Positions 18,294-37,127 of a stretch of DNA of 64,000 nucleotides are shown here, one piece after another. Where the stretch lies: the NCBI RefSeq assembly GCF_000505665.1, contig NC_023033.1:1888313-1952312 (forward strand), in the 5' to 3' direction. The notes below the pieces were generated by a model that was not told the DNA's origin, ran no database searches, and worked only from the letters and a program-made list of their open reading frames with translations. A program made the position numbers and the translations under genes. Source of the stretch: Thermosynechococcus sp. NK55a (lineage in GTDB: Bacteria; Cyanobacteriota; Cyanobacteriia; Thermosynechococcales; Thermosynechococcaceae). Numbering within the stretch: position 1 is the first letter of the stretch; the number at the start of each line of letters is the position of its first letter.

Positions 18294-18388
18294 AGTGATA
18301 ATTGCGGGCAAAACCCCACCGACTGTGAATGCATTATGCCATCATCTCCAGTGTAATCAACAGGCCACCACCCCACCCACAGGATGAT

Positions 18389-19697: not shown

Positions 19698-19701
19698 GAC
19701 C

Positions 19702-21120
19702 TTATCCCCACTGTGGAGACTGCCGCGCAATCACAACCACGTAATCCCCCACCTGCAACTCATAGTTCATCGGTGGATTAATATACGTTTGGCGACGCCC
19801 CTCAACGCGACGTTCCACAGCTATCAGGAGAGCATCGTCCTGCTCCTTAAGGTGTCGTTGCGCATACCAAAAGGTTTTGCCTGCCAGCGTTGACGGCAAA
19901 GGCAGCCGATAAAATTGGTTCCCCACCTGTACCGTCAGCAGCTCCGCAAAGACGTCCATCGCCCCTTGATTGCGCACTGCATTGCCAATGAGGTGACCTG
20001 TCATTTCATCAGCTACAACCACATCCTCCACCCCTGCCGCTTGAAGTTGGACATTGTTATTGCGATCCAAAAGCTGAGCACAGGTGTAGATCGTTGGATT
20101 GAGCTTTTCCATGGTCAGCGCAGCAAGAACAGTGCGGGCATCGCGGTCTTGATCACTGCGGGGCTGGCTGGTATCCGCCAAGAGAATGGCACGGGAGGCA
20201 TGGTAAATCTGCACCTTCTCTAAAACGTCAATGCGGGTATAGTCTCCCGAATAAAAGTAGAGGCGATTTTGATCCGCTGTCCGCAATTCATTCACAGGCA
20301 GCTGTGCCAGTTCAGCAATAACGACAATCGGCGCATAGCGGGTTTGGGGATCGGTTTGTAACTCCTCCAGCACAAGGGGGGCACTGCGATTCCAGCCACA
20401 AAGAATAATGTGGTTGCGCAACTCATCCAAGTCAAGGTTCTTAATGCTCATGACCGACTGCAACCGCTGCACCATGAAGGCAGACACCACCCCTGTAAAC
20501 ACGGCAAACAAGGTCAGCCCCGACAAAACCACGACTAGGGTAACGATCCGCCCGGCATGGGTTTGAGGATAGGCACCAATGGGTTCGGCAGACACTAAAG
20601 AAAAGAAGCTGTACCACAGGGCATCCCCAAGGGTCTTGATGTTTGGGTTTGAGGTTCCTTCGATAATATAAAAAGCCAGCCCCCCAAAGAGCATGATCAA
20701 CACAATGATTAACAGTGCTGAAATTTGGGCACTGTAGAGACCAGAAATCTGGGGGGCAATGTAGTGGAAGTTGCGGTTCATCAGAATTGAGGCACGGGGC
20801 AGACGCAGCAGTGGCAGCAAACGAAACAGTGTCCACTGGGGCGGCGTGGGGAGAATCGCAACTAGATCAAGCCAGTAGTGGCGGAAAAATCGTTGCTTTT
20901 TGCGGGCGATCGCAAATCGTAGGAATAACTCAACAACAAAGCACAGCCGCAGGGGTAAATCCGACAGCATCACAAAAAAATTAGGGTACCCGGGCTGTAT
21001 CCAGAAGAGATCAATAACCACCAAAAGTACCCATATTAAAATCAAAACCAGCAGGCTAATTTCTACCTGTGGAGAGTGCAAAAATAGATCAAGCTGCTGT
21101 CTCAGCCGGCTTTGTCCCAT
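19702..21120 (-). CDS. Ion-channel protein with TrkA-type NAD-binding domain, non-canonical pore
   Basis: 472 residues. There are four to six membrane helices in the first 230 residues, including an S4-like basic stretch (FRLLPLLRLPRASI). The pore loop (residues about 167-192) has FFSLVSAEPIGAYPQTHAGR where K+ channels have TVGYGDxxPxTxxGR. The P/T/GR context is kept but the selectivity sequence TVGYG is replaced. A cytosolic RCK/TrkA-N-like domain follows (NHIILCGWNRSAPLVLEELQ, a Rossmann glycine motif variant), then a TrkA-C-like tail (LQVGDYVVVIAR). It resembles plant CASTOR/POLLUX-like and cyanobacterial relatives in design. Ion selectivity cannot be assumed to be K+. Confidence 0.75.
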   Translation of the reverse strand: MGQSRLRQQLDLFLHSPQVEISLLVLILIWVLLVVIDLFWIQPGYPNFFVMLSDLPLRLCFVVELFLRFAIARKKQRFFRHYWLDLVAILPTPPQWTLFRLLPLLRLPRASILMNRNFHYIAPQISGLYSAQISALLIIVLIMLFGGLAFYIIEGTSNPNIKTLGDALWYSFFSLVSAEPIGAYPQTHAGRIVTLVVVLSGLTLFAVFTGVVSAFMVQRLQSVMSIKNLDLDELRNHIILCGWNRSAPLVLEELQTDPQTRYAPIVVIAELAQLPVNELRTADQNRLYFYSGDYTRIDVLEKVQIYHASRAILLADTSQPRSDQDRDARTVLAALTMEKLNPTIYTCAQLLDRNNNVQLQAAGVEDVVVADEMTGHLIGNAVRNQGAMDVFAELLTVQVGNQFYRLPLPSTLAGKTFWYAQRHLKEQDDALLIAVERRVEGRRQTYINPPMNYELQVGDYVVVIARQSPQWG

Positions 21121-21191
21121 AGGTGCAGCAAAAAGAGAGCATTAGATTTGAATTGGCGCGATCGCCGGCTACTAATGAGCGAATAGTGAAC

Positions 21192-21440
21192 CTAAGTGGG
21201 AATCAGTTCTCCTGGACGCAGTTTTGCCCACCGTCCCTGTTCTTCGACGAAACTCGCACAGCTGACCACATCCCACTCCAATTGAATTTCTTCCCCTTGG
21301 GTGCGGATATTCACATTGATTGTTGGCTCAATCGGGTCAAAGTCTGGCGTCAGGGTCAAATGGGGCTGCTGGTGCTGCGCTTCAACCGCATGATAAGTGG
21401 TGCAGCGATCCACCAGGGCGCAGTTAACACAAATACACAT
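21192..21440 (-). CDS. ycf34: Ycf34 family iron-sulfur-type protein
   Basis: 82 residues from ATG 21440. The N-terminus [20 protein letters not shown] has the invariant Ycf34 cysteines, and a later VVSCASF adds another. The segment [20 protein letters not shown] is diagnostic. In Synechocystis, Ycf34 has been reported to bind an Fe-S cluster and to influence photosynthetic electron transport. The start codon lies inside the 3' end of menB (17-bp overlap), suggesting coupled expression with phylloquinone synthesis. Confidence 0.85.
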
Positions 21441-22320
21441 GGCGAATTCTCCCAATGCCACATGTTCCTACTGTAGCGCATCCCCTAGGGTCGCCAAGGA
21501 AACTGCCGAAAGTTGGGGGGCGTTTTTCCAAAAAGGCGGTCTTGCCCTCGGCACTCTCTTGGGTGAGGTAGTACAGCAGCGTTGCGTTCCCCGCTAACTC
21601 CTGGAGGCCGGCCTGGCCATCACAATCAGCATTAAAGGCCGCCTTGAGGCAGCGAATGGCCAAGGGACTTTTACTGAGGATTTCCTGTGCCCAGCGGATT
21701 CCCTCTGCCTCTAGCTCCTCAACAGGGACAACGGCATTCACCAAGCCCATCGCCAGCGCCTCCTGAGCGGTGTATTGCCGACAGAGAAACCAAATTTCCC
21801 GCGCTTTTTTCTGACCCACAATGCGGGCTAGGTAACTAGCTCCAAAACCACCATCAAAGCTCCCCACCTTTGGCCCCGTTTGGCCAAAAATGGCATTGTC
21901 CGCCGCAATGGTGAGGTCACAGACCAGGTGGAGCACATGGCCACCACCAATGGCATAGCCGGCCACAAGGGCAATCACGACCTTGGGTAGGGAGCGAATT
22001 TGCCGTTGCAGATCCAGCACATTCAGCCGCGCCACCCCCTGCTCGTCGAGGTAACCTGCCTCAGCGCGAATGCTTTGGTCACCACCTGCACAAAACGCAT
22101 ACTTACCATCCGCGTGGGGGCCTGCCCCCGTGAGCAAGACAACCCCAATGGTGGGATCATTGCGAGCATCCTCAAAGGCCTGACTCATTTCAACAATGGT
22201 TTGAGGGCGAAAGGCATTGCGCTTGTGGGGGCGATTAATCGTAATTTTGGCAATGCCCGTCGTTTTGTGGTAAAGGATGTCAGTGTAGTTGTGAACCTGC
22301 TGCCAGTGGACGCTGTCCAT
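21424..22320 (-). CDS. menB: 1,4-dihydroxy-2-naphthoyl-CoA synthase MenB
   Basis: Crotonase-fold enzyme that closes the naphthoquinone ring (O-succinylbenzoyl-CoA to DHNA-CoA) for phylloquinone, the photosystem I A1 cofactor. 298 residues. Motifs: [16 protein letters not shown], the oxyanion-hole region [26 protein letters not shown] and [18 protein letters not shown]. The C-terminus runs about 20 residues past the usual GSFLGDP end into the ycf34 start. A homologue with the shorter end would be more typical, but the frame is open. Confidence 0.93.
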
Positions 22321-22591
22321 AAAGTATCATCGCCGAGGTGAACCCCCATTGTACCCTGAGGATTCCCAGGTTGAGAGGGGAATAACATCGCCTAAACAAC
22401 TGATCTGTTCTACCTGTGGAAGTCCCCAAAAGCAAGCTCACCGACGGCAGCCTGCCAGAAAACGCCTGAGGGTCTCTCGCCATGAATTCTTGATAGCACT
22501 CCTGCGATACGAAGGCGCGGGAGGCCACCAATGGGTTGTCCCCCAATCCTCAGGTATCATAAAACTCTAGGCACATGGGCATAGCAGGATC

Positions 22592-24919
22592 ATGAGCAGT
22601 GATTTTCTCGCAGGACTCAATCCCTCACAGCGGCAGGCAGTGGAGCACTACTCGGGTCCCCTGTTGGTGGTGGCAGGAGCCGGTTCTGGGAAAACGCGCA
22701 CGCTCACCTATCGAATTGCCCATTTGATTCGCCATCGTCAGGTAGCACCAGAGAATATCTTGGCGGTGACGTTTACCAATAAGGCCGCCCGCGAAATGAA
22801 AGAGCGGATTGAAGCCCTTTTTAGCCAAGAGATGGCCAAGGAACTCTACGGCAGAGACTGGCTGGATCTGTCCCCTGCAGAACAGCAGCGGGTGCGATCG
22901 CGCGTCTATCACACCTACACCAAGCCCCTATGGATTGGCACCTTCCACAGCCTATGTGCTCGACTTCTGCGCTTGGAAATTGAGGCCTATCAACATCCCC
23001 AAGGGTATCGCTGGACGCGGCATTTTACAATTTTTGATGAGTCAGATGTACAAACCCTAATCAAGGGAATTATTACGGGTGAACTCAATCTCGATGAGCG
23101 CAGGCATGATCCGCGCGCTATCCGCTACAAAATTAGCTATGCCAAAAACCGCAGACTCAGCCCAGATCAATTGGAGCAGGAACAGAGATCGCCCGCTGGT
23201 CGTGTAGCAGCAGAGGTTTATCGTCGCTATGAGGCAGCTCTTGCCAAGAATAATGCCCTTGATTTTGATGATTTAATTTTGCGAACAGTGCATCTGCTGC
23301 AACAGCGCCCTGAGCGTCTTGACTATTGGCATCAGCAGTTCCAGCATATCCTGGTGGACGAGTACCAAGATACCAATCGCACCCAGTACGATTTCATTCG
23401 GCTGTTGGCCACCAATGGCACCCCCCCTCAACAGTTTCAGAATTGGGGCAATCGCTCAATTTTTGTGGTCGGCGATGTAGATCAATCCATCTATTCATTT
23501 CGCTGTGCCGATTTCACTATCCTGATGAATTTCCAGCAGGATTTTGGCGATCGCCTACCCGATCAGGATACCCGCACAATGATCAAGTTGGAAGAAAACT
23601 ATCGCTCCGTTGCCAACATTTTGCAGGCCGCCAATTATCTCATTGAGCACAACAGTGAACGCATTGATAAAGTGCTACGTCCCACCAAGGATCCCGGTCC
23701 CCCCATTCACTGTGAATGTTGCGACACTGAAACCGATGAAGCCTATTTCATTGCCCAACAGATTAAAGCCTTGGGCAGTCAATCCCTCGAACCCCAATGG
23801 GGACGGTTTGCGATTCTCTACCGTACCAATGCCCAATCTCGCCCCTTTGAGGAGGCTTTAGTTCGCGCAAATATTCCCTACACCGTGGTTGGTGGTCTCA
23901 AGTTCTATGAGCGCAAAGAAGTCAAGGATATTCTCGCCTACCTGCGGCTGCTGCAAAATCCTCAAGACACCGTGAATCTGCGGCGAATTATCAATGTGCC
24001 GCGCCGCGGTATTGGCAAAACCACGCTAGAGCGCCTCAGCGATGCTGCCCAAACCCTTGGCATTTCCCTGTGGGACTTAATTGCTGATACCGAATCCATG
24101 ACACCGTTGGCTGGGCGAGCCAGCCGGGCACTGCAGCAGTTTGTGACCCTCATGACCCGCCTGCGATCGCTAGTAGACGATATTGAACTCCCTGAACTGG
24201 TGAAAACCGTGATTGAAGAGACAGGCTACCGCCGCGAACTCGAAAACGCAGGCACCGACGAAAGCTTAGAGCGACTGCAAAACCTGATGGAATTGGTCAA
24301 CGCTGCCCAGCAATTTAGCGAGGAGAATGAGGGGGCCAGCCTCAGCGATTTCCTCAACAGTTCTGCCCTTGCCTCAGATTTGGATACATTGCAAGAGGGA
24401 GAGGGGGGCGTCTCCCTAATGACCTTACATGCTGCCAAGGGGCTAGAATTTCCCGTGGTCTTTTTGGTGGGGATGGAGCAGGGACTGTTTCCCAACTTCC
24501 GCAGTCTCAACGATCCCATGGCCCTAGAAGAGGAACGCCGCCTCTGCTATGTGGGCATTACCCGTGCCCAGGAGCGCCTCTTTCTGACCTTTGCCCAAAG
24601 CCGTCGTCTTTACAATGGCAGGGAAGACACGATACCGTCGCAATTTCTGACGGAGCTACCCCCAGAACTGCTCACGGGCAATGTTCAACGCCGCCCCCCA
24701 AGGGCCACTGTCATGAAGGTATCCCCCTCGCGGTTAAGCAAGGCTGCTGCCTCGCTTTGGCGGGTGGGCGATCGCATTGTCCATCCCGTCTATGGCGAAG
24801 GGGAAATTACCCATGTCTTCAATGTGGGGGCGAAACTCTCTTTGGTGGTTCGCTTTCCGCGACGCGGGCAAAGGGTCGTTGATCCCCGGCTGACGCCCCT
24901 TGAGAAGCTCAGCTACTAA
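22592..24919 (+). CDS. pcrA: UvrD/PcrA-type superfamily 1 DNA helicase
   Basis: 3'-5' DNA helicase for nucleotide excision repair and replication restart. 775 residues. SF1 motifs in order: LNPSQRQAVEH (Q motif), VVAGAGSGKTRTLTYRIAHL (Walker A), TFTNKAAREMKERI (Ia), ILVDEYQDTNRTQY (II), VVGDVDQSIYSFR (III), VFLVGMEQGLFPNF and RRLCYVGITRAQERL (VI). The C-terminal 60 residues hold a PcrA-type Tudor-like domain (VGDRIVHPVYGEGEI). A degraded gene remnant converges on its stop codon, and the foreign island begins just beyond. Confidence 0.94.
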   Translation: MSSDFLAGLNPSQRQAVEHYSGPLLVVAGAGSGKTRTLTYRIAHLIRHRQVAPENILAVTFTNKAAREMKERIEALFSQEMAKELYGRDWLDLSPAEQQRVRSRVYHTYTKPLWIGTFHSLCARLLRLEIEAYQHPQGYRWTRHFTIFDESDVQTLIKGIITGELNLDERRHDPRAIRYKISYAKNRRLSPDQLEQEQRSPAGRVAAEVYRRYEAALAKNNALDFDDLILRTVHLLQQRPERLDYWHQQFQHILVDEYQDTNRTQYDFIRLLATNGTPPQQFQNWGNRSIFVVGDVDQSIYSFRCADFTILMNFQQDFGDRLPDQDTRTMIKLEENYRSVANILQAANYLIEHNSERIDKVLRPTKDPGPPIHCECCDTETDEAYFIAQQIKALGSQSLEPQWGRFAILYRTNAQSRPFEEALVRANIPYTVVGGLKFYERKEVKDILAYLRLLQNPQDTVNLRRIINVPRRGIGKTTLERLSDAAQTLGISLWDLIADTESMTPLAGRASRALQQFVTLMTRLRSLVDDIELPELVKTVIEETGYRRELENAGTDESLERLQNLMELVNAAQQFSEENEGASLSDFLNSSALASDLDTLQEGEGGVSLMTLHAAKGLEFPVVFLVGMEQGLFPNFRSLNDPMALEEERRLCYVGITRAQERLFLTFAQSRRLYNGREDTIPSQFLTELPPELLTGNVQRRPPRATVMKVSPSRLSKAAASLWRVGDRIVHPVYGEGEITHVFNVGAKLSLVVRFPRRGQRVVDPRLTPLEKLSY

Positions 24920-25183
24920 ACCCGGCTCATACTCTCCAGCTCTCGATGTTCAGCTTTGTGGCCAATGAGTAGGTTCGTCAGCCGTTGAGTTTGTTCAATG
25001 AGTTTGTTGACCCAAAGGCCTACACTCTGCCCATTCTCTTGAGTAGCTCAGGTGCAACGTGTCTGCAGCATAGGGGATTGGTAGGAGCGGATCAGAGCTG
25101 GATGGAGTCCTCCCGGGATGGGTCATATCCTTGGCAATAAACAAAATTGAGTTTGCAGTCAGTGGCGTGGATCCTGCAGCCAT
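24916..25183 (-). pseudogene. Decayed 3' end of an unrecognised gene behind pcrA
   Basis: The minus strand shows natural-looking protein in two frames. GLWVNKLIEQTQRLTNLLIG continues to HKAEHRELESMSRV and a stop at 24916. Upstream, in another frame, is LLPIPYAADTLHLSYSRE. One frameshift near 25050 separates them. I cannot name the family. Its position at the left edge of the island suggests the insertion or later decay destroyed a backbone gene here. Confidence 0.45.
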
Positions 25184-25519
25184 TCGGTATTGGAACTGAA
25201 TGGGTCCTTTGGGAAAGTAGAGGTGGTAGAGTAGGCGTGCTAACGCATGGCTACACGGACCTCAAGATGCCCTTCTAGATATCATCTCAAGTTTAAGTTA
25301 CTTGAGGCAGCGGATAAGCCTCTGAGAAACCAAATACCCTGCGCTGAACCCACTCACCCCCCGCCTAGGTTACAGACGCGTGTAAATCAGCATGTGTTCA
25401 CCTAAACCTCTTGATGGTGTTGCCGGATGACTCGTTTCGCAACTAGTCATTGCACCGCCCGACCGCTAGCGTTTCGGCCACAGCGCGGAGTGAGTCGGTT
25501 GGAAGCGCGTGTTGGGCGA
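25184..25519. other. Gene-free left edge of the foreign island
   Basis: No frame here looks like protein. HIP1 is absent and codon-like periodicity disappears. The left boundary of the acquired DNA probably falls in this stretch. I found no tRNA fragment or direct repeat that matches the right end. Confidence 0.4.
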
Positions 25520-26621
25520 TTACTCGATGTTTACCCGTATTGCAGAACGAAGCTCTGGGTCAACAACTTCAAGTGCCAAATCCAATATCTGCTGGATATT
25601 CTTTCGACTATAGTTTGTTCCCATATACCATCCAGGAACGAGTTCAATAGAGTATGCTTCCGCCAAGTCCGGTCGGCCCGGATAGAGTTCCTGCCTATTA
25701 CGGGCTATGTATCTCCGTTTCCTTCCATGATTTCTTGATGCAAATCGGTCAAGAAAACCAGCATCAGCTTTCGCCAACAACCGGAAGACCGTTACCATGA
25801 CCTCTACCGCCGATGCAGCCTTGTACGTCTTGCCTTCAAACACGAATGAAAAACTGCCTGTGGTTCTGGATCGAGAAATCTGCTCCCGGTGTTCTGGTGC
25901 CCGGCGCATAGCCGTTTGTTGATGCGACGGTATCGGATATGCAGAAACTACGTCAAGATGGCGATTCGATTTTAAAAATTCGCTACACAAATCCAAATCC
26001 GGCTTATAGCCACAGAGATCTGCAACTTTTTCGGCTAATAATTCCAACAACAATAGAATCAGGCTCTTCAAGCAAACTCTCCCAAGCTCTGGGGAGCGTT
26101 GCCTCAATTTCTCTATCCCGGGCCACGTTTTGATAATCTGCACGTGCAGATTTTAAAGCTTCGCCAGAACACACTTTTTCATAGTGGAGATATCGTTCAA
26201 GCCTGCTGACTGCTTCTTCGATCTCACGTTCAAGCAGGTCGAGCTTATATACTCTCCTTTCATCATATCGGCCCTGTTCACCGGGAAGATAAAAACTCCA
26301 CTCTTGTCCATCTGTCAGAACAGCCATTGGAACTCCCGAATGAAAAGCGTATTCGAATAGCTGTCTATCAGCCCCTTCGGAAATGCCAACCCTCTTGACC
26401 TCAATAAATATCAATGGACGACGGGGAGGATTACATAGTGCAAAATCGACACGGCCCCCTTGGACCGAGAACTCGGGAACAACCACATTTGTATCAAATA
26501 CGGGCCATCCCAGTTCATGCAAGGTCGGAAGAAGAATTCCCTGGGAAACAGCAGCCTCAGATATAAACTCACCGCGTCGTAGACGCTCTCGAACCTGTTC
26601 TATGTGGTTTGAAATTTCCAT
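25520..26621 (-). pseudogene. HsdR-N-like (type I restriction R subunit N-domain) protein, frameshifted
   Basis: Start ATG 26621 after a GAAGG site: MEISNHIEQVRERLRRGEFI. The PD-(D/E)XK nuclease core of HSDR_N-type domains is present: SVQGGRVDFALCNP, then LIFIEVKRVG (D and ExK), and AVLTDGQEWSFYLPGE. At 26054-26060 the frame shifts: LLEEPDS continues as LLLLELLAEKVADLCGYKPD in the next frame after what looks like one inserted T. The C-terminal part (SFVFEGKTYKAASAVEVMV, VPGWYMGTNYSRKNIQQIL) is intact to the stop at 25520. Stand-alone proteins of this type are common in defence islands. Function is probably lost unless the shift is a sequence error. Confidence 0.7.
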
Positions 26622-26663
26622 TGATGCACCTTCTTTTTTATAACTTATTACGAGTATGCTCAT

Positions 26664-26993
26664 TTACGACCGCAAAAACTCGCACAGCGATTCAGGCTGA
26701 CAAGTTTCACCCGTTTGTGGGTCAAAAATAATGTCATCCCGAAAACAGTAGTAAAGGTGTGACCACCTTTCATACATTTTTCTAAAGATGACGGGGTTAT
26801 CATCTTCCGATAACGCCAAAGTATCAACTTTGCCCGAGTGCTGTACGCCCGTGGGAAATTCTGACTGCACCAACCGACAATTGAACACTGTTTCAAGATT
26901 CCCTTCGACAAGTATTTGAAGATTTTTCTCAAGCGCAAAATTGGATTGCGTCAGAACGGATAACTTTTGATCTGTGATTTCAAATAGTGGCAT
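26664..26993 (-). pseudogene. Truncated NucS/DUF91-like endonuclease N-terminus
   Basis: From ATG 26993: MPLFEITDQKLSVLTQSNFA, LEKNLQILVEGNLETVFNCR and VDTLALSEDDNPVI. This is the N-terminal pattern of NucS-like/DUF5655-associated nucleases, ending just before the expected catalytic E-x-K strand. The frame then changes to unrelated sequence (RKMYERWSHLYYCFRDDIIF). So the catalytic core is deleted and the start is fused to another fragment. The HsdR-N-like gene begins 42 bp downstream on the same strand; the two were probably an operon. Confidence 0.5.
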
Positions 26994-27293
26994 GGATTTT
27001 TCTAAATGATACTTTGATTTTGCAAGGGGGGAAGCCAACGAAGGAAACTGTCGAAAAACCCTTTTTCGCAGAGCGACGCCTGCCTAGGGTGGCTAGCGCG
27101 GCGGGGTGAGGGGGCATGCCAAGCGGTTGGAATAGGGATTTTCGGCTAATTCGGCGTCCCAGACACATAGATTTTCCCAATACTATGTACCAATGCGTAC
27201 AGTTTCCATTGTAGATCTACTTTCGATTTCGAGCGCAGCCTGAATCGGTTCATTTGTTTGTGAATACAAATGTGCGATGTTCCTCTTGCGTTG

Positions 27294-27538
27294 AAGGGAC
27301 TGCAGTAAGGTTTTCCTCAACTCCACCACAAGGGCCTCTTGCGCGGGCGAAAGCGTTGTTTGCAGACGGTGCGCTGTGTGTGGGCGCTCTTCAAAGGTGG
27401 TGCGCTGTTTCCACTTGAACACCGTCATGGGGGAGGTTCCGTAGCGCCTGGCCAGCGCGCAATCGAGTCAGAGCTCGCCGCAATTCCCGGGCAAATGGGG
27501 AGTGTGGTGCGAGCGCACTTGTGTAGCCGGATGATCAT
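27294..27538 (-). mobile_element. IS481-family transposase N-terminal fragment
   Basis: The minus strand carries the start of an IS481 transposase in broken frames: MIIRLHKCARTT near 27538, then LARRYG and TVFKWKQRTTFEERPHTAHR, then LQTTLSPAQEALVVELRKTL, ending abruptly near 27294. This is the HTH region of that family; the DDE catalytic domain is absent. It lies between the moderate-GC and high-GC halves of the island. The adjacent 27000-27180 contains no gene and may be scar sequence from the same or another insertion. Confidence 0.6.
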
Positions 27539-27636
27539 GCACTTAGCTCCTTGAAGCGTCGGACCATGCCCGGACGCCCCTAGCCAGCGATCTCAGCTAG
27601 GATGCTGCGGGCCATCAGGTAGCCATGGCAGGAAGA

Positions 27637-27667
27637 TATTGTATAATCGCCTGCTGTATTGTATAAT
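27637..27667 (+). promoter_or_regulatory. Tandem TATTGTATAAT repeats: likely promoter/operator of the defence-like operon
   Basis: TATTGTATAAT occurs twice, at 27637-27647 and 27657-27667, a 20-bp period (two helical turns). Each copy contains a perfect -10 hexamer TATAAT in TG-extended context. They lie 33-63 bp before the first codon of the operon, in a short AT-rich stretch within otherwise high-GC DNA. Tandem -10 elements or a repeated operator for a dimeric regulator both fit; no regulator gene is obvious nearby. Confidence 0.55.
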
Positions 27668-27699
27668 TTCCCACCATATTACAGAGCAACGCAATCACA

Positions 27700-29127
27700 G
27701 TGAACGACGGTGACAACAACCTGGCTCCGGGCGACGTGGTCTCGGGCTTGGAGCCCTCTGAGTTCGTCGAGATCCAGCGTGTCGCTCCCTTCGGCGGCAA
27801 GACGCTGGTCGAAGGCGTCGGGCTCCAGTCCCGCCGAGTGGTGAAGCGGCCTCTCACCGCTGAGGAGCTGGCCGCGCTCGTCAAAGTCAGCGACCGACTC
27901 CGTACGTTCGATGGCGATGCCAGCCTCTTCCTCCTCGGCACCGAGGCCGAGCGCATCCGCATCGCCCACCAGTTCGACCCGCTCTTCGTCGTCAACTCCA
28001 GCATCGTGGATCCGTTGCCTCACCAGGTCGAGGCCGTCTATCGCTATCTCCTGCTCCTTCCGAGGATCCGGTTTTTGCTGGCCAACGACACGGGAGCAGG
28101 CAAGACCGTTATGGCCGGCCTGCTGATCAAGGAGCTGCTCTTCCGGGGAGTGATCCAGAAAATCCTCGTCATCACCCCAGGCGGCCTGACGAAGCAGTGG
28201 CAAGAAGAGGAACTCCAGGAGAAGTTCGGCCTCCACGCGTGGCTACTGGGTCGCGCGACGTTCGAGGCGGAACCAGGCCAGTTCTCCCGCTACGAAGAGA
28301 GCATCTTTGTCACCTCCATCGATTTCCTGGCGCGGAATGGACGCTGTCTCAAGGCCGCATTGGAAACTCAATGGGACCTCGTGGTAGTGGACGAGGCCCA
28401 CAAGCTCTCCTCGGCCTATGAGTACGGCACCAAGCTCAAGGAGAGCAAACGCTACAAGGCGCTGAACGCGATCGCCCGCAAGACCGATCATCTGCTCTTC
28501 CTCACGGCGACGCCGCACCGAGGACGAAAGGACACGTTCCGCCGGCTCCTTTTGCTGCTCGATGAAGACCTGTTCCAGAAAGACGAACACGTCGCCGACC
28601 GGGTGCGCGAGCAGGCTGCGCCTTACGGAGCCTCAGGACCGGAGGACTTCGAGGACGAGCGCCCGATCAGCCAGGCGCGCAACCGCTTCTTCCTCCGCCG
28701 GCTGAAGGAGGAGATGGTGGACTGGGACGGGCAACCTCTTTTCAAGCCACGCCACACCAAGATGATCGGCTACAACCTCACCCCTGAGGAGAAGACGCTC
28801 TACGACGCGGTGACACGCTACGTCCGCTCGAAGCGCAAGGAGGCCAAAGAGAAGAGGAATCGGAACGTCGAGCTGGCCCTCATGGTTATGCAACGGCGGC
28901 TGGCTTCGAGCCTCTATGCAATCACGCGGACTCTGGAAAACCGGCCGCGCGCCCTCAACGAGGTCCTCGTCATCCTGCGGGATCCGCGCCGGCGGATGGG
29001 GCGCATCCAGCGGTACGGTCAGGCGGGCGATGAGCTCCACTATGAGGGGAGGGGTATGAAATTGCAGAATCGGAGAATACTGTGTACCACGATGCCGATT
29101 AGCCGTTCAGTATCGGCTCTAACCTAG
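27700..29127 (+). pseudogene. SNF2-family helicase 1, internally deleted and truncated
   Basis: GTG start at 27700. It has a complete SF2/SNF2 first lobe: LPHQVEAVYRYLLLLPRIRF, Walker A NDTGAGKTVMAGLLIKELL, VVVDEAHKLSSA and LFLTATPHRGRKDTF. After residue about 425 (NEVLVILRDP) the sequence jumps directly to a motif VI-like RMGRIQRYGQ, then to unrelated residues and a stop. The intervening second lobe (roughly 200-250 residues in the paralogue that follows) is missing. So a deletion has fused lobe 1 to motif VI and cut the C-terminus. It is paralogous to the helicase at 29150. It may still bind DNA or ATP, but translocase activity is unlikely. Confidence 0.75.
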
Positions 29128-29149
29128 AGGCGGCAGGAGGATCTGAAGC

Positions 29150-32100
29150 ATGGCTGAGAATCGCCTTTCAACGCGGATCGGACAGCAGATCTCCCTGCCG
29201 GGGCACTTCGATGTCCCCGTCTGTCTCGAGCATGTTAGGGCGCTGGGGGCCGACGGCTCGGCGGGCTACGAGTGCCGCGTCCGGCTGCCCGACGGTACGC
29301 TTGAGGAGACAGTCATCTCGCCCGCAGAAGCGGCGTCACTCTGTGGCACAGACCAGGAAGGGCCGACGGCGATCAAGCCCGTTGATGCGGAACGACTCCG
29401 GCTGTTGATTGAGTCGGCCCGCATACGCTTGGCCTACGCGCACGACCACCAGTTCGCGGTAAGCCTCTCGGGCATCCGTACGCTGCCGCACCAGATCGAG
29501 GCCGTTTACCAGGTCATGCTGCCGCAGCCGCGCCTACGCTTCTTGCTCGCCGATGACCCGGGGGCCGGGAAGACCATCATGGCCGGTCTCCTGATCAAGG
29601 AGTTGAAACTGCGGGGGGCCATCGAGCGCGTGCTCATCCTCTGCCCCGCGCCCCTCACGATTCAATGGCAGGACGAGATGCTCCAGTGGTTCGGCGAGTC
29701 GTTTGACATCATCTCGTCCGCCGTGGACCAGCAGCAGCTCGGGAACCCGTGGCAGCGCTCGTCGCAGGTCATCGCCTCCATCGACTACGCGAAGCAGAAC
29801 GACGTGCGCGAGCGGGTTTGGCAGCAGAGGTGGGACCTCGTTGTCATTGACGAAGCCCACAAGTGCTCGGCCTATACCAAGTCTTCCTCTTCCTCGGAAC
29901 GCAGCAACGAAGTGGTCGAGACCAAGCGATATCAGCTCGTGAAGCGACTTTCCGAGGCGGTGGATAACGTGCTGCTCATCACTGCGACGCCGCACCACGG
30001 AAACGAAGACAGATTCTCACACTTCCTGCGGCTCATCGATCTCGACCTCTTCCCCGAGCCGCACCGGTTCGGCAAAGAGGCAGCCGAGGCACGCCGAGAG
30101 ATCTTCAGGCTCGGCAAGGGCTCGCCATGGTGCCTGCGCCGCCTGAAGGAGGATCTGAAGGACCTCAACGGCAAGCGGCTGTTTTCCAACCGGCTTGCCA
30201 AGACCGTGACCTTCCGTCTCAATAGCGAGGAGTACGCCCTCTACAAGTCGGTGACGGACTACATCAACAAGTTCATCCCTCACCAGAGCGGCAAGCGCGG
30301 GTCATCGGCCGCGCTCACGCGCACGGTCCTCCAGCGGCGCCTGGTCAGTTCGACCTGCGCCATCCACGAGTCCCTGAAGCGGCGGCTCAAGAAACAGCAG
30401 GACCTGCTGGATCAGCTGGCGGGCCTTTCTCCCGCCCAGCGCGCCAACCGCCTTGCGGCTCTTCAAGGACGCCTGCCCGACGCAGAGCAGGATGAAGACG
30501 ACCTCGATAACGAGGTCCGCGACCGGCTCGTCGACGAGTACACAGCGGCGCTGGAACTGGAGCAATTGCGGGCCGAGATCGCCGCCCTCAAGGAACTCGT
30601 CGAGCAGGCCCGCAAGGTGCGCGAGCTCGCGAACGATTCCAAGTTGGCCGCCCTCAAGAAGTGCCTGGGTGAGGCCCAGTTCGTTGATCTCAAGGATGGC
30701 CGGGGCAAGCTCCTCGTCTTCACCGAGCATCGCGACACCCTCAATTACGTGCGCGAGCACCTTAAGCTCTGGGACTACAGCACCTGCGAAATCCATGGCG
30801 GCATGAATCCACACGAGCGCAAACGCGCTCAGGAGCAGTTCCGCACCACTGCCCAAATCTGCGTGGCGACCGAAGCGGCCGGCGAAGGCATCAACCTTCA
30901 GTTCTGCCACCTGATGATCAACTACGACATGCCGTGGAATCCCACGCGTCTCGAGCAGCGCTTGGGGCGCATTCATCGGATCGGCCAAGATCGCGACGTT
31001 TACGCCTTCAACTTCGTGGCCACGGATTCCGAGGACGGGCAGCCCATCGTGGAGGGGCGTATCCTGCATCGCCTCCTCGAGAAGCTCGACACGATGAACG
31101 AGGCCCTGGAAGGGCGCGTCTTCGACGTCATCGGCGAGGTCCTCTCGCTGAACGACGTCAACCTGCCCGACATGCTGCGGGAAGCGGCCTACGATCCACG
31201 CCGGCTGGACGAGTACCTGGACCAGATCGACCGCATCGATCCGGCCAAGTTGAAGGAGTACGAAGAGGCCACGGGCATCGCTCTCGCCCGAAACCACGTG
31301 GACTTCACGGGATTCCAGCGCCACAACCTCGAGGTCGAGGAGAAGCGGCTCATGCCCCGCTACGTGGAGACGCAGTTCATCGCCGCGGCCAAGGAGGTCG
31401 GCCTTCACGTCGAGCCGAGGGCCGACGGCCTCTGGCGTATCGAGCACGTCCTGGCCGACCTGCGTTCAGAGCGACTTCGGTCGGTCCAGCGCTTGGGCAA
31501 GCCTGACCCCTCCTACCGCAAGGTCACGTTCCATAAGCACCACCTCGAACAGGCTGCCCATGTCGATGCGGTCCTCATGGGACCCGGCCATCCCCTCTAC
31601 GCGGCGGTGGACGAGAAGCTCAACGAGAAGCTGGCAGCTCTCCAGGGAGGGATCGGGTTTTACGTGGACCCGCTCACGACCGAGCCGTACCGGCTCCACT
31701 TCTTCGAGATCACCATCCGCGGCAAGGACTCCAGGGGAAGCGACGTTCCGCTGCATGGGGAGCTCGTGGCAGTCCGGGAGCAGCGTGGACAGTTCGAGAT
31801 CGTCCCGAGCGACATCCTGCTCAACCTGCCACCTCAGGCCAACCCGCCGTCCGCAGTCGATCCCGTCGACACCCAGGCGGCCTCGGACTTCCTGAAAAGC
31901 ACGTATCAGCTCGAGTGCCGCGCTCGCTGCCAGGAAGAGCGCCAGCGGTTCGCCCGCATCTGCCGGGAGTACCTGGAACGCTCCTTCGATGTCCGGATCA
32001 AGCGGGCCCAGGAGCGGGCCATGCTCCTCGCGGCAGAGGCGACGACCAAGCCCGAGTACAAGCTGTCGGCGGATGAGGCGCGCAAGTACGTGGAGGAGTT

Positions 32101-32671
32101 GCAACGCCAGCGCCGGGAGCGGCTTAGCGGGCTCGGTCGGTTGGAAATCGCCCGTACCGGCCCCGTGCGTCACGTGGCCACGGCCATCGTCTTGGCAGCC
32201 GGCGCTGACACGGAAACTCAACTGGCGGACCTCGCGGACGAACTCGATCCCAACGTCCGAAGCCGGAGCGAACGAGCGGCCGAGGACCTTGTGGTGACCG
32301 CGCTCAAGGAGGAAGGCTTCCCAGGGGATCGCATCGAGCGTGTCGGGCACCTGAAGCTCGGCTTCGACATCCGTGCCCATCGGATCGCGGACGAGGCGAC
32401 CGGCGAGGTGCTCGTCAAGCGCGTCGAGGTCAAGGGCCGCGCTCGCGGGCAGCCCGTGCGCCTCACGACCAACGAATGGTATAAAGCACAGCAACTTGCC
32501 GAGACCTATTGGCTCTACGTGGTGTGGGATCCGCTCGGCCCGAACCCGGAGCTCGTCCGCATCCAGAATCCCGCGGTACGATTGGACCACGCCAAGCGCC
32601 AGATCGTCGCGGCGCGGTTTTTCGAGATCCCGGCGGAGGCGGTCGTCGAGGCGGGTCGAGCATATCTTTAG
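29150..32671 (+). CDS. SNF2-family helicase 2 with C-terminal DUF3883 domain
   Basis: 1173 residues, ATG 29150 after a strong GCAGGAGG site. Lobe 1: LPHQIEAVYQVMLPQPRLRF, Walker A DDPGAGKTIMAGLLIKEL, VVIDEAHKCSAYTK and LLITATPHHGNEDRF. Lobe 2: LLVFTEHRDTLNYV, ICVATEAAGEGINLQFCHLM and motif VI LEQRLGRIHRIGQDRDVYAF. The C-terminal 120 residues form DUF3883 (VKRVEVKGRARGQPVRLTTN, YWLYVVWDPLG), a nuclease-fold-like domain often found in defence helicases. All catalytic motifs are intact. It belongs to the COG0553-type helicases that accompany restriction-like modules, and is inferred to translocate on or recognise foreign DNA. Confidence 0.88.
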   Translation: MAENRLSTRIGQQISLPGHFDVPVCLEHVRALGADGSAGYECRVRLPDGTLEETVISPAEAASLCGTDQEGPTAIKPVDAERLRLLIESARIRLAYAHDHQFAVSLSGIRTLPHQIEAVYQVMLPQPRLRFLLADDPGAGKTIMAGLLIKELKLRGAIERVLILCPAPLTIQWQDEMLQWFGESFDIISSAVDQQQLGNPWQRSSQVIASIDYAKQNDVRERVWQQRWDLVVIDEAHKCSAYTKSSSSSERSNEVVETKRYQLVKRLSEAVDNVLLITATPHHGNEDRFSHFLRLIDLDLFPEPHRFGKEAAEARREIFRLGKGSPWCLRRLKEDLKDLNGKRLFSNRLAKTVTFRLNSEEYALYKSVTDYINKFIPHQSGKRGSSAALTRTVLQRRLVSSTCAIHESLKRRLKKQQDLLDQLAGLSPAQRANRLAALQGRLPDAEQDEDDLDNEVRDRLVDEYTAALELEQLRAEIAALKELVEQARKVRELANDSKLAALKKCLGEAQFVDLKDGRGKLLVFTEHRDTLNYVREHLKLWDYSTCEIHGGMNPHERKRAQEQFRTTAQICVATEAAGEGINLQFCHLMINYDMPWNPTRLEQRLGRIHRIGQDRDVYAFNFVATDSEDGQPIVEGRILHRLLEKLDTMNEALEGRVFDVIGEVLSLNDVNLPDMLREAAYDPRRLDEYLDQIDRIDPAKLKEYEEATGIALARNHVDFTGFQRHNLEVEEKRLMPRYVETQFIAAAKEVGLHVEPRADGLWRIEHVLADLRSERLRSVQRLGKPDPSYRKVTFHKHHLEQAAHVDAVLMGPGHPLYAAVDEKLNEKLAALQGGIGFYVDPLTTEPYRLHFFEITIRGKDSRGSDVPLHGELVAVREQRGQFEIVPSDILLNLPPQANPPSAVDPVDTQAASDFLKSTYQLECRARCQEERQRFARICREYLERSFDVRIKRAQERAMLLAAEATTKPEYKLSADEARKYVEELQRQRRERLSGLGRLEIARTGPVRHVATAIVLAAGADTETQLADLADELDPNVRSRSERAAEDLVVTALKEEGFPGDRIERVGHLKLGFDIRAHRIADEATGEVLVKRVEVKGRARGQPVRLTTNEWYKAQQLAETYWLYVVWDPLGPNPELVRIQNPAVRLDHAKRQIVAARFFEIPAEAVVEAGRAYL

Positions 32672-32680
32672 GAGCAGGCC

Positions 32681-33703
32681 ATGAATGACACGAACAAAAT
32701 TCGCCCATCGCCCTCCCGTGGCCGCCCCGGTTTCTCCATCAAGATCGAGGGACCGAGAGTCGGAGAGGCGCGTCTTTCGGCGAACGACCTGGCGACGATC
32801 ATCCTCCGTACGCAACAGGCGTTGAAGCGCATCGGGCAGGTGCTCTACGGGGAATCGTCCGTCGGTCAAGGGCGAAAGAAGAAGGAGATCGAAGAGTTGT
32901 GCGAGCTCTTCGTTGTGGGCTGGAAGCCGGGAAGCGCCGTCGCCGAGGTCGAACTTGCCGAGCCTCCGGCCCAGATGAGCTTCTTCGGGTACATCGGAGA
33001 GGAGAGCCTCAAGGCCTTCCTCAATGGCATGATGCGTATCAAAGATGAGCCGATCGAGACCCTTCAGATGGTGCCGGCAGGTTTCGATCCCGGAGTGCTC
33101 CAGACCTGCGACTCCCTGGGACACGTGCTGGATCACGGCGTTGACACGATCACCTTTCGGCCGATCCATGTGGAGACAGTACCTCCCGTCACATTCGATC
33201 GCCCGCTTCGAGAGAAGGTCAGGGGGCTGCTCGGGAAGCCCCTCGACCAGCGTCAGGTGGAGAAGGTCGGGCGCCTCGAGGTGCTCGACGGCCATCGCGG
33301 CGTGCAGGGACGTCTTTGGGAGCCGGATGGGACGAGGTGGCTTTGCATCTTCAAGCCCGAACATGTGGAGCTTCTTCCGGATTTGTGGCTGCGCACGGTA
33401 AGGGTGGTTGGCGAGGCGGTTGTCGAGCCGAACAGGGAACGCGTCCTCAATGTCGCGTCCGTTGTTACTGTCGAGGAGGAATTCCAAGAGAGCGCTCTGG
33501 GCGGAGAGGTGGAACTCGCGCCCTTTTGGACCTCTCTCCCGTTGGAGAAGCTGGCTGAACTTCAAGGCGTTCAGCCTGCCGACGACCTCGACCAGATCAG
33601 CGCGCTCTGGCCGGTGGACGACGATCCGGATCAGATGCTCGCTCACATCCTCGAAGAGCGCTCGGCGCGCCGCGGCATCGCACGGGGGGAGCATGACCGA
33701 TGA
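32681..33703 (+). CDS. Unrecognised 340-residue protein of the defence-like operon
   Basis: ATG 32681 with TAGGAG just upstream. I recognise no family. The N-terminal quarter is basic and beta-rich (FSIKIEGPRVGEARLSANDL), followed by a helix (IILRTQQALKRIGQVLYGES) and a Lys-rich loop (GQGRKKKEIEELCELF). The central part has repeated strand-like segments, including WEPDGTRWLCIFKPEHVELL. The C-terminus is acidic and helical (WPVDDDPDQMLAHILEERSA). No membrane segments or cysteine clusters. The stop overlaps the PIN gene start by 4 bp, so it is probably the partner of the PIN protein (antitoxin, adaptor or effector). High GC, no HIP1. Confidence 0.7.
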   Translation: MNDTNKIRPSPSRGRPGFSIKIEGPRVGEARLSANDLATIILRTQQALKRIGQVLYGESSVGQGRKKKEIEELCELFVVGWKPGSAVAEVELAEPPAQMSFFGYIGEESLKAFLNGMMRIKDEPIETLQMVPAGFDPGVLQTCDSLGHVLDHGVDTITFRPIHVETVPPVTFDRPLREKVRGLLGKPLDQRQVEKVGRLEVLDGHRGVQGRLWEPDGTRWLCIFKPEHVELLPDLWLRTVRVVGEAVVEPNRERVLNVASVVTVEEEFQESALGGEVELAPFWTSLPLEKLAELQGVQPADDLDQISALWPVDDDPDQMLAHILEERSARRGIARGEHDR

Positions 33704-34122
33704 GCGTTGTGCTTCTCGATACGACGGTCGCGAGTCTCCTGCATCCCAAGAAGAAGGGGAGCGAGATTCGAGCCAAGTACGAGACGCACATGCGGGGACA
33801 AACCCTCGCCTTGAGTTTTCAAAGCGTGGCCGAACTGTGGCACTGGGCAGAGACGAATGGGTGGGGAGAGAGCGCTCGCCAAGGGCTTGATAGTTTCGTG
33901 CGTCGGTTTCTCGTGATTCCCTACGACTATGAGCTGGCTCGGGTCTGGGCGCGGGTCATGGAAGAGAGCCGGAAGGAAGGCCGTCGCTTCGAGGCCGGAA
34001 ACTGTTGGATTGCCGCCACTGCGGTGCATCGGCAAATCCCCCTTCTCTCCCACGACAAGGATTTCGCCGGGCGCGCCATCAGCGGGCTAAACGTGATCAC
34101 CCATGTGGAGGAAATGAAGTGA
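33700..34122 (+). CDS. PIN-domain protein (VapC-like)
   Basis: 140 residues. PIN fold: VVLLDTTVASLL (Asp7), SFQSVAELWHWAE (Glu45), AGNCWIAATAVHRQIPLLSH and the terminal DKDFAG (Asp119, Asp121). The third acidic residue, normally the Asp of ND-x-WIAATA, is Asn101 here, which may lower metal binding and RNase activity. No canonical VapB-type antitoxin is adjacent; the 340-residue protein takes that position. ATGA overlaps the upstream stop, and its own stop overlaps the methyltransferase start (GTGA), so all three are translationally coupled. Confidence 0.85.
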   Translation: MSVVLLDTTVASLLHPKKKGSEIRAKYETHMRGQTLALSFQSVAELWHWAETNGWGESARQGLDSFVRRFLVIPYDYELARVWARVMEESRKEGRRFEAGNCWIAATAVHRQIPLLSHDKDFAGRAISGLNVITHVEEMK

Positions 34123-37100
34123 CCGACGACCGGCGGCTGATCGAGGACTACCTCCCCATTGAGGCGATCAGCAAGGAGGCCTCGCGGGAGAAGTCCGTAC
34201 GCAAGGGGCACATCTCCACGCTGCATCTGTGGTGGGCGCGGCGTCCGCTCGTAGCCTGCCGAGCCGCGGTATACGGAGCGCTGGTGCCGGCGAGTCGGTT
34301 CCGGCCGGCGAACGGGCCGGAGGAGAAGCGGGACAGCTTGACCCGGGCCAACGCGGCGAAGTTCGTCGAGCGGCTCTGTCAGTATCCGGGCTCCCCGCAG
34401 GCCATCGCCGAGGCGCAGAAGCACATCCTCGAGGCGCACGCCGAGCGCCTGACGAAGGAGACCGGGAATCCGGTCAGTGTGCAAGACATCGTCCAGGGCC
34501 GCGCTCCGCGGCCGAAGGTCCTCGACATGTTTGCCGGCGGCGGGGCGATCCCGCTCGAGGCGCTGCGGCTCGGGTGCGAGGCCTACGCGCTCGACTTGAA
34601 CCCCGTGGCCCACATCATCGAGCTCTGCACGCTGGTCTACCCGCAGAAGTATGGCAAGCCCGACCCGAACGCGCGCGGCATGACCGGCCCCAAGAACGCG
34701 AAAGGCGAGACCACATGGGGCGGGCTGGCCGAGGAGGTCCGCTACTGGGGCAACTGGGTCCTCCAGAAGGTCAAGGCCGAAATCAGCGACCTCTATCCAC
34801 TCATCCCCGACCCAGACAACAATGATGAGAGACCTCTCGTCAAAGCCGAAATGTGGCAGTCCTCTGAAAGGGAAACTGTCCCGCCAGGGTATCTCGTGCC
34901 CGTCGCTTATTTGTGGACACGGACTGTTCGATGCAAAAATCCTTCGTGCGGGGCGACTGTGCCACTGGTACGCCAGACCTGGCTATGCAAAAAGAAGGAT
35001 CGCTATGCGGCGCTGCGGATGATCGCGCCCAAGGGCGAAAAAAGGGTCCGCTTCGAGGTGGTGGAAAGCCACACCGAGAAGGGACTGGGTTTCGACCCGG
35101 CAGGCTTTTCCAAGGCCGGCAACGCTACCTGCCCGTTCTGTGGAACCGTGGCCGACAGCGATTACGTGAAGGCTGAGGGCTGTGCCAAGCGCATGGGCGA
35201 GCAGATGATGGCCATCGTTTGCACCCGGCCGGGAAGGCAGGGGAAGGTGTACTTGTCAGTGGAACAGGCCCTGGAAGCGACAGGCGGGACGCCTGTCATC
35301 CCACCTGAAGAAGAGATTCAAAAGCGCATCGAGGCGCTCTGCCGGAAAACAGGGCTGACGGTGCCGAGGGAGCCGATGGATGTAAATGATCCCACCACTG
35401 TTGCCGGAAGAGGTTTTGGCATTAAAACATTTAGTGACCTCTTCACCCCGCGCCAGATGCTCTGCCTGCTCACCTTCGCCGCGGCGGTGCGGGAGGCTTA
35501 TCAAACCATGGTGGGACAGGCCGGTGGCACAGGCTTCCAGCCTTTGAATCAAGGCACAGGCAGGATGCCTGTGCCACCATTGGATGAGGAGAGGGCCAAG
35601 GCGGTAGTGACGTATCTTGCAGTTATTCTCGACCGCTTGGCGGATTTCAACTCGGTTCTTGCAACCTGGAAAGAATCCGCAGGCCATACCTTCGGCCGAC
35701 AGGCGTTGCCAATGGCATGGGACTTCTCCGAGGTTAACCCGTTGTGCGGCGAGACTGGCAGTTGGGGATCACAGCAGCGCTACGCGATTGAGCACGTAGA
35801 TTCATCTATCGCTAACGGCCTTCCCGCCACCGTCACCCGCGGCTCGGCGACCGCGCTCCCCTGGCCTGATGGAACCTTTGACGCCGTCATCACCGACCCG
35901 CCTTACTATGACAACATACAGTATGCTGCTCTTTCGGATTTTTTCTATGTCTGGCTCAAGCGGACCATCGGCCACCTCTACCCGGAGCATTTTGGTGCAG
36001 AGCTCTCACCGAAGAAAAACGAGGCTGTTGCTTCGCCATGGAGGCATAAAAGCAAGGTAGATGCAAGAAAGGCCTACGAAGAGATGATGGCCAAGTCCTT
36101 TGCCGAGGCGAACCGGGTCTTGAAACCAGGCGGCCAGATGGTCGTGGTCTATGCCCACAAAACGACGCTCGGCTGGTCCACGCTCGTGGATGCCTTGCGG
36201 AAGGCGGGGTTCATCGTAACAGAAGCCTGGCCGCTCGACACCGAAATGAAATCACGGCTTGTGGCAAAGGGAACCGCTGCCCTTGCCTCCAGCATCTTCC
36301 TGGTTGCCCGCAAACGGGAAGGGACGGAGACGGGCTCCTACGAGGACGAGGTCCGGCCCGAGCTGGAGCAGATCGTCCGCGAGCGGGTGGACTCGCTCTG
36401 GAAGATGGGGATCACCGGCGCGGACCTGGTGATCGCCGCCGTGGGCGCGGGCCTGCGCGCTTTCACGCGGTTCGCCCGGGTCGAGTACGCCAACGGCGAG
36501 GAGGTCCCGGCCGAGAAGTTCCTCGCCGAGGTGGAAGGGGTGGTGCTGGAGACGCTGTTGGAAAAGATCTTCGGCATGGCCGGCAGTGGCGTGGCCGCCG
36601 TGGACGGACCGAGCCGCTTCTACGTGCTCTGGCGCTATACCTACAAAGTAGCCGAGATGGAGGCGGGCGAGGCGATCGTCTTCACCTACGGGCAGAACGT
36701 GGAACTCGACGGCGCGAAGGGCCTCTCCACCGGAAGGCATGCCCTAGTCGAAAAGAAGAAGGGGAAGTACCGCCTGCGGGACTTCACGGAGCGGGGTGAG
36801 GACGAAAAGCTGGGTCTCCCCGACAACAGAACGGCGGCACCGCTGATCGACGCCCTGCACCGTATCCTGTGGCTCGTGGAGAACCAGCCGCGCGCGCTCA
36901 ACAAGTTCCTCGATGAGGCCCGGCCCAACCGGGAACGCCTGCGCCTGGTGGCCCAGGCCCTGGCCGGGACTGCTCTTGCGGGCAAGAAGGATGATGGCCC
37001 GGACCACACGGTGGTCACGACGGCCGCCGAACAGGCGGCGCTCAAGAAACTGGTCGCCAACTGGCGGGCGCTGATCGACCAGCGGCTCGCCGAATTGCCG

Positions 37101-37127
37101 CTTTTAGCGACGGAGGATTCACCATGA
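34119..37127 (+). CDS. DUF1156 adenine-specific DNA methyltransferase with Zn ribbon (COG1743-like)
   Basis: 1002 residues from GTG 34119, preceded by GGAGG. The DUF1156 N-terminus is LIEDYLPIEAISKEASREKS and HISTLHLWWARRPLVACRA. SAM-binding motif I is VLDMFAGGGAIPLEALRLG, and catalytic motif IV is VITDPPYYDNIQYAALSDFF (DPPY, N6-adenine type). An inserted Zn ribbon has CKNPSCG, WLC and CPFCG. Two short palindromic repeats interrupt the coding sequence in frame (35279-35297, 35523-35578). The C-terminal part has FTYGQNVELDGAKGLSTGRH. It is presumed to mark self DNA. Base composition alternates between very high and moderate GC along the gene. It overlaps its neighbours by 4 bp at each end. Confidence 0.9.
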   Translation: MTDDRRLIEDYLPIEAISKEASREKSVRKGHISTLHLWWARRPLVACRAAVYGALVPASRFRPANGPEEKRDSLTRANAAKFVERLCQYPGSPQAIAEAQKHILEAHAERLTKETGNPVSVQDIVQGRAPRPKVLDMFAGGGAIPLEALRLGCEAYALDLNPVAHIIELCTLVYPQKYGKPDPNARGMTGPKNAKGETTWGGLAEEVRYWGNWVLQKVKAEISDLYPLIPDPDNNDERPLVKAEMWQSSERETVPPGYLVPVAYLWTRTVRCKNPSCGATVPLVRQTWLCKKKDRYAALRMIAPKGEKRVRFEVVESHTEKGLGFDPAGFSKAGNATCPFCGTVADSDYVKAEGCAKRMGEQMMAIVCTRPGRQGKVYLSVEQALEATGGTPVIPPEEEIQKRIEALCRKTGLTVPREPMDVNDPTTVAGRGFGIKTFSDLFTPRQMLCLLTFAAAVREAYQTMVGQAGGTGFQPLNQGTGRMPVPPLDEERAKAVVTYLAVILDRLADFNSVLATWKESAGHTFGRQALPMAWDFSEVNPLCGETGSWGSQQRYAIEHVDSSIANGLPATVTRGSATALPWPDGTFDAVITDPPYYDNIQYAALSDFFYVWLKRTIGHLYPEHFGAELSPKKNEAVASPWRHKSKVDARKAYEEMMAKSFAEANRVLKPGGQMVVVYAHKTTLGWSTLVDALRKAGFIVTEAWPLDTEMKSRLVAKGTAALASSIFLVARKREGTETGSYEDEVRPELEQIVRERVDSLWKMGITGADLVIAAVGAGLRAFTRFARVEYANGEEVPAEKFLAEVEGVVLETLLEKIFGMAGSGVAAVDGPSRFYVLWRYTYKVAEMEAGEAIVFTYGQNVELDGAKGLSTGRHALVEKKKGKYRLRDFTERGEDEKLGLPDNRTAAPLIDALHRILWLVENQPRALNKFLDEARPNRERLRLVAQALAGTALAGKKDDGPDHTVVTTAAEQAALKKLVANWRALIDQRLAELPLLATEDSP
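35279..35297 (+). repeat. Short palindrome inside the methyltransferase gene, copy 1
   Basis: GACAGGC (35279-35285) and GCCTGTC (35291-35297) are perfect 7-bp arms with a 5-nt loop. It is read in frame as part of ATGGTPVIPP and resembles the larger palindrome 230 bp downstream (core ACAGGC-n5-GCCTGT). It looks like a REP-type unit that has become coding sequence. Confidence 0.65.
35523..35578 (+). repeat. Paired REP-like palindrome inside the methyltransferase gene, copy 2
   Basis: An outer 12-bp inverted repeat, GGTGGCACAGGC (35523-35534) and GCCTGTGCCACC (35567-35578), encloses an inner perfect 9-bp hairpin, GGCACAGGC (35553-35561) with GCCTGTGCC (35567-35575). The element keeps the reading frame and encodes GGTGFQPLNQGTGRMPVPP. 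Elements with this GGCACAGGC/GCCTGTGCC core are, as far as I recall, abundant in some Planctomycetes- and Armatimonadetes-type genomes and not usual for thermophilic cyanobacteria. Confidence 0.7.

Follow-up and report, generated by a model that had tools for sequence, protein, structure and literature searches.

The gene at 27700-29127 (plus strand) of the window, by which we mean the whole stretch of 64,000 nucleotides analysed here, is very probably a pseudogene, namely the N-terminal HmaA relic of an older Hma system whose ends now bracket a second Hma system. The site displays an internal deletion and a truncation in this gene, hereafter helicase 1, a different break in the copy of a genus-mate (G003), two bookends, empty sites in other members of the genus, and different middles between the bookends. 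The genome carrying the window (G000) is a single contig of 2.52 Mb; this size, together with UDP-sulfoquinovose synthase and MenB, would suit a thermophilic cyanobacterium such as Thermosynechococcus.

An in-frame internal deletion in helicase 1

Helicase 1 starts with GTG and codes for 475 residues, the frame being open throughout until the stop codon at 29125-29127. Residues 1-431 (27700-28992, plus strand) form an SNF2/SF2 lobe 1, seen as an HmaA-type relic from Pfam (SNF2-rel_dom, ResIII, and DEAD), from the PADLOC HmaA model, which covers residues 8-422, and from the near relatives, with which lobe 1 shares 68-85% identity. The sequences by which an SF2 lobe 1 was recognised, GAGKT, DEAH, and TATPH, are all present in the translation, and we take them to be motifs I, II, and III. 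Lobe 1 is then joined to motif VI, ALNEVLVILRDPRR running straight into RMGRIQRYGQAGDE. The junction, placed by alignment with G003 and the full-length relatives, lies at 28992/28993 (plus strand), between codons 431 and 432, and keeps the frame, codon 432 opening the motif VI signature RMGRIQRYGQ.

Alignment with full-length homologues, a check proposed in the earlier note, makes the deletion visible: between RDPRR and RMGR, 178 codons are missing compared with 11 of 17 relatives and 176-177 compared with the remaining six, the L020 row, which ends upstream of motif VI, having been left out of this count. With these 176-178 codons gone, helicase 1 is left without a full lobe 2, motifs IV and V included, and has no Pfam Helicase_C match. 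The motif VI remnant (28993-29032, plus strand) was identified by DNA agreement and BLAST, 36 of its 40 nucleotides being identical to L018 and 36 of 40 to L019, both full-length relatives, and 33 nucleotides matching L019 at 97% in BLAST, vs. just 28 of 40 for the motif VI of helicase 2. Such agreement rules out a chance look-alike. Since the distant helicase L067 also matches the remnant in BLAST (32 nucleotides at 91%), the DNA of motif VI appears conserved beyond the helicase-1 subfamily.

These data support the view that helicase 1 was once full-length and has undergone a genuine internal deletion that kept the frame. The earlier note had described an open frame with lobe 1 fused to motif VI, which is how the ORF at 27700-29127 reads and what the DNA of motif VI confirms. 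Its estimate of 200-250 missing residues, made against helicase 2, holds as to the loss but not as to the size, which comes to 176-178 codons against the relatives of helicase 1.

A lost 3' half and an unrelated tail

After motif VI, L018 has some 567 further residues, which are gone from helicase 1; as the earlier note had remarked, the tail is unrelated, and no match to the relatives is obtained past ~29032. Because these C-terminal ~567 residues are missing in addition to the internal gap, helicase 1 contains two lesions and two joins. The C-terminal region is of NOV_C type in helicase 2, and Pfam returned no NOV_C match in helicase 1. When the missing half was searched in the genome, no close copy was found elsewhere in G000, the best match being helicase 2 (30%), which rules out that the C-terminus had moved to another place. 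The frame is closed by a stretch (29033-29149, plus strand) that leads up to the start of helicase 2 and for which only short chance words were found in 11 genus genomes and the fetched loci.

Helicase 1 is thus most likely a pseudogene, shortened by the in-frame loss inside it and by truncation at its 3' end. It is a relic, not a working fused helicase, because the C-terminal half and nearly all partner genes are gone. As the motif IV/V stretch and the C-terminal part are missing, its product should not work, and the truncated protein would be expected to fail as a translocase or effector. The junction is known from the assembled contig, and one might suspect an assembly or sequencing artefact, with the gene intact in the cell. 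We regard this as highly improbable, given that the sequence belongs to a single 2.52-Mb contig from which any close copy of the C-terminal half is missing, that helicase 1 is also broken in G003, and that the window branch shows relaxed change (see below).

Relatives of helicase 1

A search of the genome collection with helicase 1 yielded 33 loci. In 19 of them the open frame is closed and 1103-1235 residues long, its end not being the native one in L025, L027, and L036, and 21 loci extend to the C-terminal end. Among the latter, L042, L045, and L046 are just 36-37% identical to L018, and several carry internal frame changes or stops (L025, L027, L033, L044, and L047). Seven loci leave their contig while still matching (L020, L021, L022, L035, L043, L048, and L049), and five break into other DNA, at residue 834 in L036, 381 in L037, 416 in L038, 360 in L040, and 125 in L050 (L018 numbering). 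The full-length relatives retain lobe 2, motif VI, and the long tail in the alignment, and the short architecture, lobe 1 plus motif VI, was found in 0 of the 33 related loci. A genuine short family, which the earlier note had named as the finding that would speak against a deletion, is thereby ruled out. At the level of the phylum, three of 386 genomes match helicase 1 at E <= 1e-100, namely, G000, G003, and G411, the last with 54% identity and an open frame of 1148.

Replacement by a defence module accounts only partly for the five other copies that break off. In L037, a partial Type I methyltransferase and an AlbA_2-type protein come after the break. L036 contains a 1208-residue frame (7974-11600) in which helicase-1 residues up to ~834 are joined in frame to an HmaB-like C-terminal stretch; this fusion is another deletion inside an Hma operon. 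The protein after the L038 break has no PADLOC match. In L050, the break is followed by two ORFs without match in Pfam or PADLOC and three more without Pfam match; a repeat of 1827 bp (7655-9481 and 14510-16336, 99.9% identity) was also noticed there, each copy including a 125-residue N-terminal piece of helicase 1. L040, with 178 bases left after the break, was not judged for replacement. With regard to a possible carrier, no helicase-1 relative was found in plasmids at E 1e-80, nor in viral contigs, and the sole plasmid DNA match, of 41 nucleotides, lies within tRNA-Leu.

Full-length helicase 1 appears to be the HmaA of its own Hma system, because an HmaB match is present downstream in 15 of the 21 loci reaching the C-terminal end (the remaining six have just 56-1820 bases after the helicase-1 gene), and HmaC follows in L023, L025, L031, and L039, and also in the broken L036. 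In the window, helicase 1 has neither its own HmaB nor its own HmaC beside it, the sole remnant being a 49-codon HmaC scrap 11.5 kb away. When the partner HmaB of L023 was searched in G000, it matched the HmaB of the second system alone.

Helicase 2 and the second Hma system

The Hma system is named in PMC8565338, and PMC12839542 equates it with the Type-1 DUF499-centred BREX-related (BR) systems, described as tripartite, with a DUF499 ATPase, a methyltransferase, and a helicase. PADLOC recognises HmaA, HmaB, and HmaC side by side in 29150-40660. Helicase 2 (29150-32671, plus strand, 1173 residues) is the HmaA of this set on the basis of PADLOC, of its Pfam Helicase_C and NOV_C domains, and of its relatives (47-53%). 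It is followed on the same strand by an ORF of 340 residues (32681-33703) without Pfam or PADLOC match, by a PIN-domain ORF (33700-34122, Pfam PF01850), by HmaB, a DUF1156 methyltransferase according to PADLOC and Pfam (34005-37127), and by HmaC, a DUF499 protein according to the same two sources (37749-40660). The true start of HmaB is probably downstream of 34005, judging from the homology, which begins at residue 32-42. The plan of one frame per gene breaks down at HmaC, which occupies two overlapping frames (37749-39947 and 39833-40660), vs. one frame of 957-976 residues in three relatives. The frame change falls within 39842-39908, close to a G7 run (39883-39889), and may reflect a real break in the gene, phase variation of the tract, or an error of sequencing. 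The region 29150-40660 is a second, predicted Hma / Type-1 BR system, headed by helicase 2.

Helicase 1 ends 22 bp before helicase 2, with which it shares 41% identity over the common part. The earlier note had suggested that two tandem SNF2 paralogues would facilitate such a deletion, and unequal recombination between them would indeed have two SNF2 genes in tandem at its disposal. However, helicase-1 sequence lies on both sides of the junction, where the overlap is ~1 nucleotide, the motif VI remnant is identical to helicase 2 at 28 of 40 nucleotides only, and the pair is absent from the related loci compared, so that this origin is not supported and deserves little more than a nominal probability. 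The DNA around the 33 helicase-1 loci, whose flanks are often short, yielded no helicase-2-like gene distinct from helicase 1, and in these loci the matches to helicase 2 land on helicase 1 itself. Conversely, helicase 1 is absent from the 3.7-8.4 kb upstream in all five nearest helicase-2 relatives (47-53%). Of 388 genomes of the class, 13 match helicase 2 at E 1e-150, G000 among them. Helicase 2 is not a local duplicate; the two helicases belong to two different Hma systems, and their pairing is an accident of this island.

The island, its empty sites, and the copy in G003

The island (24905-40817) lies between a uvrD-like gene (22592-24919) and tRNA-Leu (40882-40965). In five members of the genus (G005, G007, G004, G001, and G006), the end of the uvrD-like match is separated from the tRNA-Leu flank by 343-582 bp of other sequence, and the same interval measures ~16 kb in G000 and G003. 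The site of G009 looks empty too, since only ~620 bp or so separate the flank from a 50-nucleotide fragment of the end of uvrD. G002 and G010, with flanks apart on the chromosome, and G008, with flanks on different contigs, were left out of this comparison. The left parts of G000 and G003 are 93.0% identical over 17488-25624 and 90.9% over 25563-28996. G+C is 0.59-0.68 in the island at 28-40 kb, vs. 0.49-0.58 in the flanks, and falls to 0.45 at 26 kb. An HSDR_N-type gene recognised by Pfam (25520-26663, minus strand) is frameshifted in the window, where it is spread over two frames (25520-26143 and 26004-26663), and is a single ORF of 383 residues in G003.

Helicase 1 of G003 is 88% identical over residues 1-443. 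The frame lengths in the two genomes are similar (486 and 482), and a shared deletion was suspected; it is ruled out by the differing translations. The G003 gene extends beyond the junction of the window, has an in-frame TAG, and ceases to match L018 at residue ~527. The intact first helicase that the earlier note had suggested looking for in related strains is thus not seen in G003, whose copy is broken at another point, nor in the five genus members with an empty site; it exists as a full-length gene in other relatives. Behind helicase 1 of G003 come DUF499, DUF3780, a DUF1156 methyltransferase, a PLD helicase, an Mrr_N protein, and a DUF3644 protein, a middle that resembles a Type-2 BREX-related system.

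The second bookend, which closes the island on its right-hand side, is a 49-codon HmaC scrap of helicase-1 type (40677-40823, plus strand). It is 73% identical to L023 HmaC, its counterpart in G003 (767011-767157) is 71% identical, and in the search of G000 and G003, which also returned the DUF499 genes now present in the two genomes, both scraps align to residues 189-237 of L023 HmaC. The scrap of the window shares 65-75% with the HmaC of five helicase-1 loci and 50% with the window's own HmaC; taken together, the two scraps show 60-76% with the HmaC of the five loci, vs. 40-50% with the window HmaC and 36-39% with DUF499 of G003. Because an HmaC scrap of helicase-1 type survives at this edge, the old system brackets the newer one. 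To the right of ~40737, the window and G003 are 98% identical (94 nucleotides). To the left, the two scraps are far more divergent in DNA and retain the same protein pattern, as if a crossover had occurred inside the scrap. A single ancestral HmaC scrap does not account for this divergence, which we count against the explanation preferred here. A further HmaC-like piece, with an internal stop, was noticed on contig C1 of G003 (765281-765535), 45% identical to residues 560-645 of L023 HmaC.

Selection and decay

Taking L018-L020 as outgroups, the window branch of helicase 1 has 15 synonymous and 30 nonsynonymous changes and the G003 branch 20 and 11 (Fisher p 0.010), the test resting on 45 and 31 changes, respectively, and the expectation under random change being a nonsynonymous-to-synonymous ratio of about 3.0. 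Of 184 columns that are invariant in 18 relatives, 8 are altered in the window and none in G003, vs. 0-5 in each of the relatives when it is left out in turn. In the close-clade form of this test, the window deviates at 21 of 296 columns, and the relatives span 3 to 29, which includes this value. The end branches of the tree measure 0.13 for the window and 0.055 for G003, and are longer in some relatives. Furthermore, the copy of the window has a D to N change at the conserved residue preceding Walker A, and one codon has been added behind its DEAH box. The pairwise dN/dS between helicase 1 of the window and that of G003 is 0.21, far below 1, the neighbouring genes having values of mostly 0.04-0.21, with 0.44 and 0.57 in two short ORFs. 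Since this ratio is low and the close-clade result is no outlier among the relatives, the break is likely to be fairly recent, and a dN/dS of 0.21 leaves room for constraint until recently or for a residual role.

The short helicase 1 might then be functional, as a lobe-1 protein modulating the second Hma system, e.g., one that binds DNA or a partner but does not translocate. Its open frame of 475 residues, the low dN/dS to G003, and the complete HmaA beginning 22 bp downstream would suit such a role. Yet its architecture occurs in 0 of 33 loci, it is missing beside all five nearest helicase-2 relatives, and the window branch is relaxed, the changes next to Walker A and DEAH included, so that we consider this function very unlikely. 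With regard to helicase 1 as a relic of an older system, the frame that is still open, the dN/dS of 0.21, the close-clade test, and the missing source of 29033-29149 are counted against it, and the HSDR_N-type neighbour, likewise frameshifted, is counted in its favour.

Possible nested replacement at one site

The following course of events is very probable. An older Hma (Type-1 BREX-related) system entered the site in, or before, the common ancestor of G000 and G003. The lineage of the window lost 178 codons of helicase 1 between lobe 1 and motif VI, as well as everything from just past motif VI to the last 49-codon HmaC scrap; the order of the two deletions and their joining without homology are inferred. 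The second Hma system (helicase 2, HmaB, and HmaC), now located between the ends of the old one, presumably replaced it as an incoming module. In G003, the same ends bracket the Type-2-like system, helicase 1 being broken at another point.

A nested pattern, with old ends and a newer middle, is seen in both the window and G003, the middle being another Type-1 system in the former and a Type-2-like system in the latter, with the N-terminus of the helicase retained as the left border and the HmaC scrap as the right one. We can tentatively propose that the site swaps whole BREX-related systems in this nested manner, the newcomer landing inside the resident and the old ends being kept as borders, a generalisation that is possible but on balance doubtful. 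As newcomers would land inside it, the resident system would itself be the target into which its successors insert, and, if it is true that old genes help newcomers to land, the accumulation of related systems at one place would be explained. The case itself is ordinary defence-island turnover, unusually legible, since a single site offers the empty state, an old system of which two genus-mates retain the ends only, and two different middles of related kind. It also calls for caution in annotation, where 27700-29127 would count as a second Hma helicase.

Comparison with known systems

Compared with the HmaA of Hma, as modelled in PADLOC and named in PMC8565338, residues 8-422 of helicase 1 fit the model, and its full-length relatives precede HmaB and sometimes HmaC; helicase 1 differs in having lost its partners, its C-terminal half, and the greater part of lobe 2. 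For the helicases of Type-1 systems, PMC12839542 mentions an N-terminal TUDOR-like domain, and it also refers to experimental work on HmaA in defence against phages. The same paper distinguishes the Type-2 BR systems by DUF3780 and an HKD helicase. G003 resembles these in having DUF499, DUF3780, a DUF1156 methyltransferase, and a PLD helicase between its two ends, a set that is absent from the window. The window is itself closest to the Type-1 BR systems as outlined there, its helicase 2, HmaB, and HmaC fitting the tripartite plan, with the differences that HmaC of this second system is in two frames and that helicase 1 is merely the relic of one such system.
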